Source: Rickettsia endosymbiont of Cantharis rufa (GTDB taxonomy: Bacteria > Pseudomonadota > Alphaproteobacteria > Rickettsiales > Rickettsiaceae). From it: 64,000 nucleotides of DNA. Shown here piece after piece: positions 3,176 to 58,932 of this stretch (position 1 is its first letter; the number at the start of each line of letters is the position of its first letter). Where the stretch lies: the NCBI RefSeq assembly GCF_964026445.1, contig NZ_OZ032150.1:1116001-1180000 (forward strand). The letters run 5' to 3'. The position numbers and the translations under genes are program-made. The notes under the pieces are model-generated. The model was not told the origin of the DNA and ran no database searches. It saw only the letters and a list, made by a program, of their open reading frames with translations.

Positions 3176-3364
3176 TGTCACCCCGTGGCTTGACCTATAG
3201 TACCGGACGATTTTTATTCTGTGTCATTCCCGCGGAAGCGGGATCCATTATTTTAAAGCCATTTTAAAGCTTAATTTGAAAAGTAAAAAATCTTTGAAAT
3301 TAAGCTTTGTTAAAAGCTCGATTTATTTCGCTTTACCCCGGATTCCGCTTTCGCGGGAATGACA
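3176..3364. repeat. Half of a type C repeat followed by a full type B palindromic repeat
   Basis: Positions 3176-3196 match one arm of the type C repeat (tgtcaccccgtggcttgacc) with no partner arm. Positions 3222-3364 form a type B palindrome: tgtcattcccgcggaagcgg at the left and ccgctttcgcgggaatgaca at the right, with an AT-rich centre. It ends 3 bases from the stop codon of the next gene. Confidence 0.75.
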
Positions 3365-40970: not shown

Positions 40971-41018
40971 TGTCATTCCCGCGAAAGCGGGAATCCAGCA
41001 TAAAGCGAGATATAGCTA
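40971..41018. repeat. Left half of a type B repeat split by IS630
   Basis: tgtcattcccgcgaaagcgg followed by gaatccagcataaagcgaga. The right half, ending cctacgcgggaatgaca, lies at 41919-41977 beyond the IS. Confidence 0.75.
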
Positions 41019-41914
41019 AGCCTCTATAAAACAGTTACGTCATGTACTTTTCGAAAAGCGTGTCTACATCACAGAGATATTTTCTTCTCCTAGATTTAGC
41101 TTAAAACTATTCTGGTTCAATGGGATTTAGATCAGGGGAATAAGGCGGTAAGTACTCTAATATATGACCGACTTTTTCTATCATAATTTTTAAATTTGGA
41201 CTTTTATGAAAACTTGCATTATCCATTACAACTACTGAATTATGGGGTAATTTAGGTATTAAATCCTGTTCTACCCAAGCGTTAAAAATAGCAGTATTAA
41301 CATTGCATTCAAAAATTGACACAGTCAGCAATGATTTATCTATTAACGCCCCTATAACATTAGTTCTTTTTGACGGATGCCAATCATGGATACCATAACA
41401 TCTCTGACCTTTTACTGAATACCCATGGGTCCTAGGAGCACTACGGACAAAACAGCTCTCATCGGTAAATACGATCACTTTCTCTTCCGCTTTATACTTT
41501 TTGATCTTATGCTGAAATTCTAGCCTCTCTTCTTCTTTTGCCTTCGGATGTCTTAAAGCTTTTTTTATACGTAATATTTAACTTATTTAATGCTTTATGT
41601 ATCCCTGATTTACTAACTCCTAACCGCTCAGCCCTTTCATATTGGTATGCATCACTATATTGCTCTACGCCTACCTTCAATCTATCAAGCGGTATTTTTG
41701 TTGAATCTTTATTTCTACTTCTTAAGGGCGATATTCTTTTTGTCCATACAAATACTCTATTCTTTCCTATTCCAAAACGTTTTGATATTGATGCAAAACT
41801 CATCTTCTTTTTTTTCTTGATTGCTGAAACTTTCTTTCTAAAGTCTACTGAATATGTTATTACAATGATTTATTTTAATTACTCCATCTTATTGTAACTG
41901 CTTTATAGAGGTTT
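41019..41914 (-). mobile_element. IS630-family element, frameshifted transposase
   Basis: Terminal repeats agcctctataaaacagttac (41019) and gtaactgctttatagaggtt (to 41913) are inverted copies. The transposase frame is split: 41507-41803 holds the helix-turn-helix part (MSFASISKRFGIGKNRVFVW) and 41107-41478 the DDE part (VFTDESCF, VVMDNASFHKS, YLPPYSPDLNPIEP). A run of seven T (41560-41566; A7 on the coding strand) has one base too many: with six, ITYKKALRHPKAKEEERLEF continues into the second part. The likely original start upstream of 41803 (ITYSVDFRKKVSAIKKK) has lost its ATG. Confidence 0.87.
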
Positions 41915-41918
41915 GGTT

Positions 41919-41977
41919 ATAAATTGAACTTTCAAAAAGCTTTAGGGTAATGGATTCCCGCCTACGCGGGAATGACA
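41919..41977. repeat. Right half of the type B repeat split by IS630
   Basis: Contains ttcaaaaagctttagggtaa and ends in the arm ggattcccgcctacgcgggaatgaca, partner of 40971-41018. Confidence 0.75.
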
Positions 41978-42024: not shown

Positions 42025-43791
42025 TTAAGAGTTCTCCTCTTCCTGTTGTTTATACCAAAGTTCTGCGTAATAACCCTTTTGCTTTAGTAAGGTTTTATGG
42101 TTGCCTCGCTCAACTATATAGCCTTTATCTAGAACGATAATCTCGTCTGCTTCGATAATAGTTGATAGTCTATGAGCAATAATAAGAGTAGTATGATATG
42201 CCGATATTTCCTTAAGGCTTGCTTGAATTAGCTTTTCAGTTTTAGTATCAAGCGAGCTAGTAGCCTCATCAAAAACATATATTGACGGATTTTTTAAGAT
42301 GGTTCTTGCAATCGCAATACGCTGTTTTTCACCGCCTGAAAGCTTTAAGCCTCTTTCGCCTACCTGCGTCTCATACCCTTCGGGTAGCGCGCTAATAAAC
42401 TCATGGATGTGAGCGTTTTTTGAAGCTGCTATAACTTCGTCATAACTAGCTGCATTATTACCGTATGCAATATTGTAATATATCGTATCGTTAAACAATA
42501 CTGTATCTTGCGGGACAATTCCTATGGATTTACGAAGCGATTGTTGCGTGACTTCTCTTATATCTTGATCGTCTATAGTAATACTACCGCTATTAATATC
42601 GTAAAACCTAAAAAGCAAACGTGATATCGTCGACTTACCTGCCCCACTACTACCTACTATTGCAAGGGTCTTACCGCTCTTGATCGTAAAACTTATGTTA
42701 TGCAAAATCGAACGCTCGTTATTATAAGCAAAGCTTACATTATCGAAACTAACTTCGCCTTTTGATATAATTAGCTCCTTAACATCTGCAGCATCCTGCA
42801 CTTCTGCCGGTATATCGAGTAGCTTAAACATATCTTCCATGCTAACTAGAGCGTTCTTAATTTCTCTAAAAGCAAAACCAAGTATTGAAAGCGGAATTGA
42901 TAACTGAAGCAGGTAAGCATTTACCATGATTAAATCACCTACCGTCATTTTATTCTGACTTATGGCGTTTGCCGAAAGTATCATCAAAGCCACAAGCCCT
43001 AGGGATATAATAACATCCTGCCCAATATTTAAAATTGATAGGCTATTAGTAGTTTTAGTTGAGGCTTTTTCATAAATTTGCATCGCTTCATCAAATTTCC
43101 TTGCCTCATATTCTTCATTACCGAAATATTTAACGGTCTCAAAATTCAGCAAACTATCGATTGCCCTATTATTGGCAGTGTTATCGCTTTGGTTCATTTC
43201 TCTTGCAAAAGAAATACGCCAAGTGCTGATTAGGAAAGTATAACCGACATAAACTATCATGGTTATTAGGATAGTCAGGGCAAACCAAATACCATAAACA
43301 TACCATAACATCCCACTTACAAGTATTATTTCTATGCTTGTCGGAAAAATATTAAATAATGAAAACCGCAGAGCCGCTTCAATACCTTTAGTACCACGCT
43401 CTATTGACCTACTTAAGCCCCCTGTTTTTCGGGTAATATGGAAACGCATACTTAAATTATGCATATGCTTAAAGACATTTAGAGCAACCAAACGAGTCGC
43501 TCCATGCCCTACTTTTGAAAAAATAATATTTCGTACTTCACTAAAAATTTGAACAAGTATTTTAGTTCCGCCATATGCAACAATAATCCCGATAATAACC
43601 GAAAGAGCAAAATTTTTATTTAGCCCGTCTATGATATATTTATAAACAATCGGGACGAAAATATTTATTATTTTAGCTATGACTAGACAAATAAGAGACG
43701 TAACAATACGCAAGCGTATGTCAAAATCCTTCGACCATAAATACGGTAGAAGTAAATAGAATGAATTTTTGTGATTGTTGTTTTTGGACAT
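42025..43791 (-). CDS. ABC exporter of the Atm1/HMT1 type
   Basis: 588 residues: six membrane helices then ATPase. Atm1 hallmarks are RFHITRKTGGLSRSIERGTK, NFETVKYFGNEEYE and YGIWFALTILITM. ATPase motifs: VGSSGAGKST, LSGGEKQRIAIART, NPSIYVFDEATSSLD, LIIAHRLSTI. Mitochondrial Atm1, which exports a glutathione-sulfur compound for cytosolic iron-sulfur assembly, is thought to derive from this alphaproteobacterial group. A link with the isc genes and glutaredoxin nearby is reasonable but inferred. Confidence 0.92.
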   Translation of the reverse strand: MSKNNNHKNSFYLLLPYLWSKDFDIRLRIVTSLICLVIAKIINIFVPIVYKYIIDGLNKNFALSVIIGIIVAYGGTKILVQIFSEVRNIIFSKVGHGATRLVALNVFKHMHNLSMRFHITRKTGGLSRSIERGTKGIEAALRFSLFNIFPTSIEIILVSGMLWYVYGIWFALTILITMIVYVGYTFLISTWRISFAREMNQSDNTANNRAIDSLLNFETVKYFGNEEYEARKFDEAMQIYEKASTKTTNSLSILNIGQDVIISLGLVALMILSANAISQNKMTVGDLIMVNAYLLQLSIPLSILGFAFREIKNALVSMEDMFKLLDIPAEVQDAADVKELIISKGEVSFDNVSFAYNNERSILHNISFTIKSGKTLAIVGSSGAGKSTISRLLFRFYDINSGSITIDDQDIREVTQQSLRKSIGIVPQDTVLFNDTIYYNIAYGNNAASYDEVIAASKNAHIHEFISALPEGYETQVGERGLKLSGGEKQRIAIARTILKNPSIYVFDEATSSLDTKTEKLIQASLKEISAYHTTLIIAHRLSTIIEADEIIVLDKGYIVERGNHKTLLKQKGYYAELWYKQQEEENS

Positions 43792-43852
43792 TTTGAAGTC
43801 TTTGTGAATTTGTATGGCTTTGTAATCCAGGAAGCTTGTAGGTGTGGTTCGA

Positions 43853-43880
43853 TGTCATTCCCGCGTAGGAGAGAATCCAG
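43853..43880. repeat. Left arm of a type B repeat at the 3' end of the GIY-YIG gene
   Basis: tgtcattcccgcgtaggaga followed by gaatccag. Its partner arm is at 44176-44203, with the nuclease gene between them. Confidence 0.75.
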
Positions 43881-44157
43881 AAATACACTTACCTAAATCT
43901 TCCCAATTAGGATTAAGTTTTTCTATTAATTTTATTTTCCAACTACGATTCCACTTTTTTAATGCTTTTTCTCTAACAAGTGCTTCTTTAATATCAGCAA
44001 ATTCTTCTGTATAAACAAGTTTTATAGCATTATATTTTGTCGTAAAACCCTTGATTATTTTTTGTTTATGTTCATAAGTACGACATAGTATATTATTAGT
44101 AACACCAATATATAGAGTGCCGTTGCGATCAGAGCATAATATATATACCCAATACAT
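43855..44157 (-). CDS. GIY-YIG nuclease, small stand-alone type
   Basis: 100 residues. MYWVYILCSDRNGTLYIGVT supplies the Y-x-Y...YIG pair, NNILCRTYEHK the catalytic Arg-Tyr/His region, and VREKALKKWNRSWKIKLIEK the end of the domain with a Glu. One domain, no DNA-binding extension, as in the YhbQ/UPF0213 group. The last residues (GKCISGFSPTRE) are translated from the palindromic repeat arm 43853-43880; the other arm lies 18 bp upstream of the ATG. The gene therefore occupies the centre of a repeat element. Function in cells is unknown. Confidence 0.88.
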   Translation of the reverse strand: MYWVYILCSDRNGTLYIGVTNNILCRTYEHKQKIIKGFTTKYNAIKLVYTEEFADIKEALVREKALKKWNRSWKIKLIEKLNPNWEDLGKCISGFSPTRE

Positions 44158-44175
44158 TTTTATTATTTATTTTTT

Positions 44176-44203
44176 CTGGATTCCCGCCTGCGCGGGAATG
44201 ACA
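44176..44203. repeat. Right arm of a type B repeat upstream of the GIY-YIG gene
   Basis: ctggattcccgcctgcgcgg gaatgaca, inverted partner of 43853-43880. Confidence 0.75.
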
Positions 44204-44245
44204 TATGGTTTTGTCTACGTTCGCTCACAATGGCGTTTTTATTAA

Positions 44246-46607: not shown

Positions 46608-46784
46608 TGTCATTCCTGCGTGGATCGAAAAATCCGTTCGGTGTCATACCGTGGCTTGACCACGGTATCCAACAAAACAACTGAAATACTAATAATTTTA
46701 GTATTTTAAACTGGATCCCGCGGTCAGGTCGCGGGATGACAGAGGTGAAATTGATCCACACAACAATGCCCCGCGGGAATGACA
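46608..46784. repeat. Type C repeat nested inside a type B repeat
   Basis: Outer type B arms: tgtcattcctgcg (46608) and ccgcgggaatgaca (to 46784). Inner type C element 46642-46741: tgtcataccgtggcttgacc to ggtcaggtcgcgggatgaca. One repeat seems to have inserted into another between uvrB and rnhB. Confidence 0.75.
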
Positions 46785-47445: not shown

Positions 47446-47561
47446 TGTCATTCCTGCGTAGGCGGGAATCCAGCGTAAAGCGAGATAACCTAAGTTTTTA
47501 ATTTTAAAAATTTGCTGTATTTTATACTTTTTTCTGGATTCCCGCCTACGCGGGAATGACG
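47446..47561. repeat. Type B palindromic repeat, complete
   Basis: Left arm tgtcattcctgcgtaggcgg, right arm ccgcctacgcgggaatgac. Inner cagcgtaaagcgagataa is shared with other type B copies. It lies between rnhB and hscB. Confidence 0.85.
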
Positions 47562-58731: not shown

Positions 58732-58932
58732 TGTCATCCCGTGACTTGACCACGGGATCCAAAAAACAACTAAAAACATCAATAATATTGAGTATTGTAG
58801 GAATGTTGCTGTTAACCTGAAAGGCAATTTATGTGATTCCTGCGAAAGCAGGAATCCAACATAAAGCGAGATATATCGAGCTTTTAAAAAGCTTTGAAGT
58901 AGTATGGATTCCTGCTTTCGCAGGGATGACAT
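58732..58932. repeat. Type C half-element followed by a full type B repeat
   Basis: 58732-58760 is one type C arm (gtcatcccgtgacttgacca). 58832-58932 is a type B palindrome: tgtgattcctgcgaaagcag to ctgctttcgcagggatgaca, sharing the inner cataaagcgagatatatcga. This fills the 300 bp before the virB2 terminator. Confidence 0.75.

Follow-up and report, generated by a model that had tools for sequence, protein, structure and literature searches.

A GIY-YIG nuclease gene between inverted REPs in Rickettsia is a candidate REPtron-like unit

A small nuclease gene lying between two inverted arms of a palindromic repeat raises the question of whether the enzyme is the agent that spreads the repeat. The locus examined here belongs to a stretch of 64,000 nucleotides (the window) from the Rickettsia endosymbiont of Cantharis rufa, and its features are collected in Table 1. 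The first-pass annotation had placed the nuclease ORF between the arms of an inverted palindrome and had read the C-terminus GFSPTRE as encoded by one of them, and both observations were confirmed. The arms, each of 32 nt, were 91% complementary at a spacing of 289 nt, bounded an ORF with a PF01541 match and formed the sole inverted pair reported between positions 43700 and 44350; the final codons of the ORF, reading ISGFSPTRE, lay inside the downstream arm. Residues 1–75 of the 100 matched the GIY-YIG family in Pfam. No second domain was identified in the protein, PF01541 being the sole Pfam family matched; NCBIfam returned no family for it, and neither database indicated a known transposase in the unit. 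The nearest solved chain was 1ywl, a UPF0213 protein, at a weak E value of 0.014. Folding of the upstream arm gave −8.9 kcal/mol (8-bp stem, 4-nt loop) versus −1.2 kcal/mol (z −0.09) for the downstream arm, which is decayed. The upstream arm carries the features that define CGTC REPs, namely a CGTC/TGTC tag, an 8-bp stem, a 4-nt loop and a CCA tail. We regard it as close to certain that the 349-nt stretch is a real unit, with well-supported specificity between nuclease and REP. On the sequence comparisons below it is probably a REPtron-like selfish unit, in which a GIY-YIG nuclease would replace the RAYT transposase and drive REP spread, and it is from these comparisons that we infer mobilisation of the REPs by the nuclease.

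Table 1. Coordinates of the nuclease unit and of short REP pairs in the window
Feature	Position	Strand	Remarks
Whole REP-GIY-YIG-REP unit	43854..44202	-	349 nt, tag GTC to tag GAC
GIY-YIG nuclease ORF, 100 aa, single domain	43855..44157	-	PF01541 E=2.8e-17
REP arm upstream of nuclease gene, intact	44173..44204	-	TGTC tag, 8-bp stem, 4-nt loop, CCAG tail
REP arm downstream of nuclease gene	43852..43883	+	inverted copy, stem lost, encodes C-terminal residues
Short A-type REP pair	3223..3363	.	presumed non-autonomous relative
Short mixed B/A REP pair	47447..47560	.	presumed non-autonomous relative
Short B-type REP pair	58833..58930	.	presumed non-autonomous relative

The repeat itself was abundant around the unit. 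The motif GTCATTCCCGCG occurred 21 times in the window at up to 2 mismatches, against 1.09 occurrences expected, and a census of five REP types (allowing up to one mismatch for three types and none for the other two) yielded 14 inward-facing pairs of less than 600 nt. Thirteen of these spanned 55–141 nt, which leaves no room for a nuclease gene, and the remaining one, of 349 nt, was the nuclease unit; judged by eye, the inner sequence of the short pairs bore no likeness to deleted units. Some REP pairs overlapped others or lay inside them, at 46651–46783 of the window and at loci L259 and L290. The window REP family was dispersed in many copies through its own genome (G000, a single contig of 1.46 Mb, of which the window spans 1116001–1180000), with 379 half sites at up to one mismatch. 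G000 contained eight PF01541 matches, of which the one within a 660-aa frame is presumed to be UvrC. Inverted GTCATTCC(C/T)GC arms were found on each of L001 (the window copy), L003, L004 and L005, whilst L008 had one such arm, L006 had arms of a different REP type and L007 had none near.

To place the window unit within its genus, genes were collected from 23 Rickettsia genomes with the Pfam model and inverted repeats were scored de novo in 170-nt flanks. Arm scores of ≥24 were obtained for 47 of 69 testable stand-alone GIY-YIG genes, compared with 0/22 for UvrC and 0/2739 control windows; at ≥20 the counts were 54/69, 0/22 and 27/2739 same-locus control windows. At least one gene scored ≥24 in 20 of the 21 genomes having a tabulated member. 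The count of 69 leaves out L127, L144, L151, L153 and L198, which are not small stand-alone genes and scored 10–14; the flank of L176 was too short for arm scoring, and the genus table leaves out six pieces in the grx spacer (G001, G002, G009, G019 twice and G021) together with a second G001 piece. One-sided arms, as at L008 and others, were not scored as arms in the inverted-repeat tests. When REPs were typed instead, the same type lay on both sides of 52/70 genes, compared with 1/1461 control windows and 0/21 UvrC genes, and an inward REP lay on at least one side of 69/70 genes, 157/1461 control windows and 6/21 UvrC genes. That REP-dense genomes simply place arms near any gene could draw on this last control figure and on the density of half sites in G000, but it is refuted by the two-sided same-locus controls and the UvrC genes, and we give it practically no weight.

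Nuclease relationships followed the type of REP. Five arm types were distinguished in Rickettsia: A (CATTCCCGCG), B (CATTCCTGCG), C (loop region ACTTGAT), D (GTGGCTTGTCCAC) and E (CATTGCGAG). The tag was GTC, preceded by T or C in most units. Left and right arms agreed in type in 52 of the 54 units where both could be typed, the best of 10000 permutations reaching 24; two units with unlike arms (L118 and L155) were left unlabelled. On a tree of the nuclease domain alone (76 columns; 60 of 70 rows, 57 of them labelled), the five types required 4 changes, which is the minimum, compared with at least 26 in 2000 shuffles. Types A, B, C and E grouped with support of 90 to 100 for most rows and type D formed a grade; of the 55 inner branches of this tree, 5 were starred and 35 open. 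Outside Rickettsia, the similarity of proteins and of arms was correlated across 70 units (Mantel rho 0.58; maximum of 2000 permutations 0.25), in a test that ignores kinship and includes a few poorly trimmed arms.

The first-pass annotation had linked small GIY-YIG genes with GTCATTCCCGCG-type repeats in other genomes, and this link was borne out in two further samples. Homologs at E≤1e-5 numbered 4991 among the 4995 candidates scored, and the nearest named ones were Rickettsia proteins. A collection of 80 related loci, 79 of which were scored with 130-nt flanks (L082 lying too near a contig end), gave arm scores of ≥24 at 37/79 loci versus 4/6921 control windows. Among its non-Rickettsia loci, 27/67 scored ≥24, 38/67 scored ≥20 and 40/67 fell below 24. 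By record title, the 27 armed loci included alpha-, beta-, gamma- and deltaproteobacteria and Lutibacter (Bacteroidota), as well as two Margulisiibacteriota, Calditrichaeota and candidate Moran-, Falkow- and Uhrbacteria. In L032, L075 and L087, and so in at least three of these loci, the inverted arms had tags pointing inward, opposite to the other units. Within a sample of 115 genomes of the window's class, a homolog was found in 37. With the window's own genome left out, the arm test covered 63 genes from 36 genomes, of which 21/63 genes (16/36 genomes) scored ≥24 versus 1/1821 control windows and 32/63 scored ≥20 versus 21/1821; 42/63 genes scored below 24. Because the queries for the collection and class samples extend into the C-terminal stretch that the arm encodes, these figures may slightly favour armed loci, a bias from which the Pfam-model search of the genus is free. 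In Rickettsia, other taxa and the class sample alike, inverted arms were far commoner at stand-alone GIY-YIG genes than at controls or UvrC, in the comparison that the first-pass annotation had proposed. Many arms in the class sample were other GTC-tagged stem-loops: L346, L332, L354, L351 and L355 had arms of other GTC-tagged families including GTCATTCCGAGCG, GTCATTTCGACCG and CGTCACTCAGAG. Arms such as those of L346 suggest that the association of nuclease and REP extends past the Rickettsia REP types.

Genomes with the repeat also tended to carry the gene. The A-type REP pattern was present in 24 of the 115 class genomes, the reversed control pattern in 0, and a homolog was found in 17/24 REP-positive versus 20/91 other genomes in a cross-tabulation compiled by hand (Fisher p=1.3e-5, or p=3.0e-5 with the own genome left out). 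No homolog at E≤1e-8 was found in 7 of the 24 genomes with the A-type pattern. G055 contained 61 A-type REPs, yet its homolog was without arms, and REPs of the type in G078 occurred without a homolog in G115 (17), G103 (4) and G109 (1). The arm sequence of G132 was confined to its own unit, in place of dispersed copies. All 25 REPs listed for G036, including both arms of its unit, were a CCCCGCG variant. Genomes that have REPs and lack a homolog would be expected if some other transposase moved the REP dimers and the nuclease gene had been captured by chance, a passenger role that would also suit the IS630-like element within another A-type pair of the window. That pair (40972–41976) encloses two ORFs resembling a transposase in two frames, which we take to be of IS630 type; an insertion sequence probably landed in a REP dimer there, and genes between such arms are accordingly not always GIY-YIG. 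Against a passenger stand the single gene family found between arms in many taxa, with clades matching REP types, and the statement, in excerpts of Di Nocera, De Gregorio and Rocco 2013 (PMC3733652), that transposase genes near CGTC REPs are only fortuitous; we consider this explanation very unlikely.

Comparison of spacers pointed to exchange of REP content between related genomes. Names for the genes bounding them (sdhC-sdhD, topA-gltX, recN, miaB-pheS, gyrB-murA, sucA-sucB and pyrE) were read from the flanking ORFs and are presumed. The window copy occupied a site common to other species: across the 22 of 23 Rickettsia genomes compared, this spacer contained whole or decayed A-type units, a C-type unit (G014; L152, in clade C on the tree; G001 and G002 have pieces resembling it), a unit with an internal deletion (G004), short dimers, or nothing of this kind. 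In this comparison a single unit with an internal deletion was observed, L097. The sdhC-sdhD spacer was 1 nt long in both G017 and G020; in other genomes its contents included units of type C, A or D, dimers of type E or D, and another ORF; by eye, five Rickettsia genomes (L209, L212, L214, L216 and L217) carried there a nucleotidyltransferase-like ORF or its remnants. At topA-gltX, where G022 had a B unit, G005 had between similar flanks a short dimer whose left arm was of type B and whose right arm was A-like. The pyrE spacer of another genus, which belongs to a different family within the same class, carried the gene-bearing form in G061, G138 and G141 (the right arm being displayed for G061 alone, the other two being recognized by left arm and gene start), a short dimer in G139 with the same REP type as the gene-bearing form, and, in G140 and G142, REPs of other kinds; no anchor was obtained for G137. 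Between G000 and G015, which were 94–97% identical over six stretch pairs, the G000 units at miaB-pheS and topA-gltX were missing from G015, and all 12 displayed differences of ≥40 nt, of 20 listed, involved REPs. At two sites (L291:7853 and L289:11341) G000 had a single hairpin, GTCATTCCCGCG..GGGAATGAC, where G015 (L292 and L290) had a full REP dimer, once with a further REP pair nested inside; the single hairpin is either a collapse scar or an excision footprint.

These comparisons bear in two ways on the proposal of the first-pass annotation that orthologous loci with and without the nuclease be compared for clean insertion of the whole unit. Loci with and without the unit do exist; no clean insertion was seen, contents having been exchanged instead, at the window, sdhC-sdhD, topA-gltX, recN, miaB-pheS, gyrB-murA, sucA-sucB and pyrE spacers. 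No base-exact empty site or target duplication was found at the compared spacers, which differ strongly, and the outer AT/AT of A and B units is compatible equally with an inverted repeat or a 2-bp duplication. A D unit lay inside another ORF in G016, with about 0.4 kb lost. A palindromic target was rejected as a general rule: the outer 60-nt flanks of 45 units had no common palindrome and only L173 scored ≥14, the mean score of 8.51 versus 7.61 after re-pairing being a small shift (p(mean) 0.003, 300 re-pairings). E-type units had flanks common to many Rickettsia species, so movement may be rare; two such units in G020 (L142 and L143) had an identical protein and matching flanks and therefore probably reflect a segmental duplication and not two insertions.

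Copying between sites appears to fit the exchanges at REP sites better than classical transposition, although deletion of the gene from the unit, or independent insertion, could possibly give the same pattern. In the likeliest mechanism the nuclease would recognize its cognate REP hairpin, in single-stranded or extruded form, and would cut beside the REP tag. Another copy's REP arms could then serve host repair as template or homology, so that either a REP dimer or a gene-bearing unit would be copied in. Gene-less dimers would thereby spread as non-autonomous partners, and gene-bearing and gene-less forms would be swapped at one site.

That one spacer can contain the gene-bearing unit in one species and a short dimer in a relative (topA-gltX and pyrE) would also be expected of a free-standing homing endonuclease that cut REPs as landing sites only, the REPs themselves being spread by other means. 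GIY-YIG homing endonucleases include the I-TevI type and the free-standing seg genes, and the unit resembles them in its GIY-YIG catalytic domain and in being a small selfish gene. It differs in that the window protein has no separate DNA-binding domain detectable by Pfam and in that the gene is bounded by REPs. The lack of a second domain speaks against homing, as do the congruence of clade and REP type and the co-occurrence of REPs and gene, which suggest that the REPs profit too; we judge homing unlikely, though it retains an appreciable share of the probability.

The gene itself showed both maintenance and decay. Median dN/dS was 0.13, 0.17, 0.14, 0.15 and 0.16 in clades A to E, respectively, calculated from 41 sequences without stops (6 in clade A), and stop-free copies of the nuclease evolve under purifying selection. 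Stops within the domain were present in 18/70 genes, and a genome contained up to 7 copies. The low dN/dS together with the interrupted copies indicates that some copies are maintained functional and others are decaying. Low dN/dS in all five clades and the retention of shared flanks by E-type units in many species would also suit a domesticated nuclease, part of a formerly mobile unit, which the host now employs in tasks such as the trimming of replication-blocking REP hairpins or cruciforms, another agent spreading the REPs; the GIY-YIG enzyme SLX1, according to excerpts of the literature, processes branched DNA. Such a housekeeping role would not require matched REPs flanking the gene, and it sits poorly with multiple and partly interrupted copies, with patchy presence across the class sample and with presence or absence differing between close genomes. 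Domestication therefore appears distinctly unlikely to us, and we continue to favour a selfish unit whose nuclease drives REP spread.

The broadest form of this proposal can be offered only tentatively, at somewhat less than an even chance: that such units constitute a bacterial mobile element of a new class, whose only enzyme, a GIY-YIG nuclease, spreads itself and REP dimers by hydrolytic hairpin cutting and host repair, independently of any recombinase, reverse transcriptase or HuH enzyme, and that they are the source of most GTC-tagged REPs (CGTC-1, CGTC-4, CATTGCGAG and related types) across phyla. As it stands we regard the unit as the REPtron idea with an unrelated enzyme; if the mechanism is true, it would be a new mobile-element class. 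The nuclease is a strong candidate for the missing agent spreading a long-known class of bacterial repeats. REP biology would gain a second enzyme chemistry, and the abundance and scatter of small GIY-YIG genes would become easier to explain. Among the matches listed in open-licence PubMed Central, as judged from titles, abstract starts and term counts, no paper joined GIY-YIG with bacterial REPs; the listed matches with both GIY-YIG and repeat terms concerned, by title, fungal mitochondria or organellar introns. The term GIY was absent from the 2018 HuH survey (PMC6006769), and the terms Rickettsia, palindrom and inverted repeat were absent from the 2006 GIY-YIG phylogenomics paper (PMC1564403). 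Term searches and excerpts of PMC12306157 and PMC2267715 showed neither nuclease nor transposase.

Among known systems, UPF0213/YhbQ-type proteins are likewise single-domain GIY-YIG proteins of similar size, with weak sequence similarity to the window nuclease; we know of no REP link for them. The closer parallel, drawn in the first-pass annotation, is with REP sequences and RAYT proteins, and it is sustained in layout and in nuclease-REP specificity. As excerpts of PMC6006769 describe it, a REPtron is a nuclease gene between REPs dispersed in the genome, each enzyme being tied to its own REP family. The window unit too is a nuclease gene flanked by inverted REPs that are dispersed in the genome, and the GIY-YIG clades are each tied to one REP family. 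The differences lie in the enzyme, a Y1 HuH transposase there and a GIY-YIG protein with PF01541 as its sole Pfam match here, and in the repeat, which has a GTAG foot there and a GTC (CGTC/TGTC) tag here. The repeats themselves match the CGTC-tagged REPs defined by Di Nocera, De Gregorio and Rocco 2013 (PMC3733652), excerpts of which identify CGTC-1 with RPE-6 and CGTC-4 with RPE-4 of R. conorii, count dRS3 of Neisseria among these REPs and place them in five phyla. Judged by stem and loop lengths, the consensus figure aside, types A and B would correspond to CGTC-1 and types C and D to CGTC-4; E-type arms and other arms of the class sample have the CGTC-REP tag and were placed in none of the four families. 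Window-type arms share with the CGTC REPs of those excerpts the CGTC, often TGTC, tag, the stem and loop lengths and the CCA tail. The same excerpts portray CGTC REPs as having no dedicated transposase, with parent REPtrons perhaps lost early; no transposase is reported there, whereas here a nuclease gene lies between the arms. A GIY-YIG family whose clades match REP types offers a direct candidate agent, and an assay, for the CGTC REPs.
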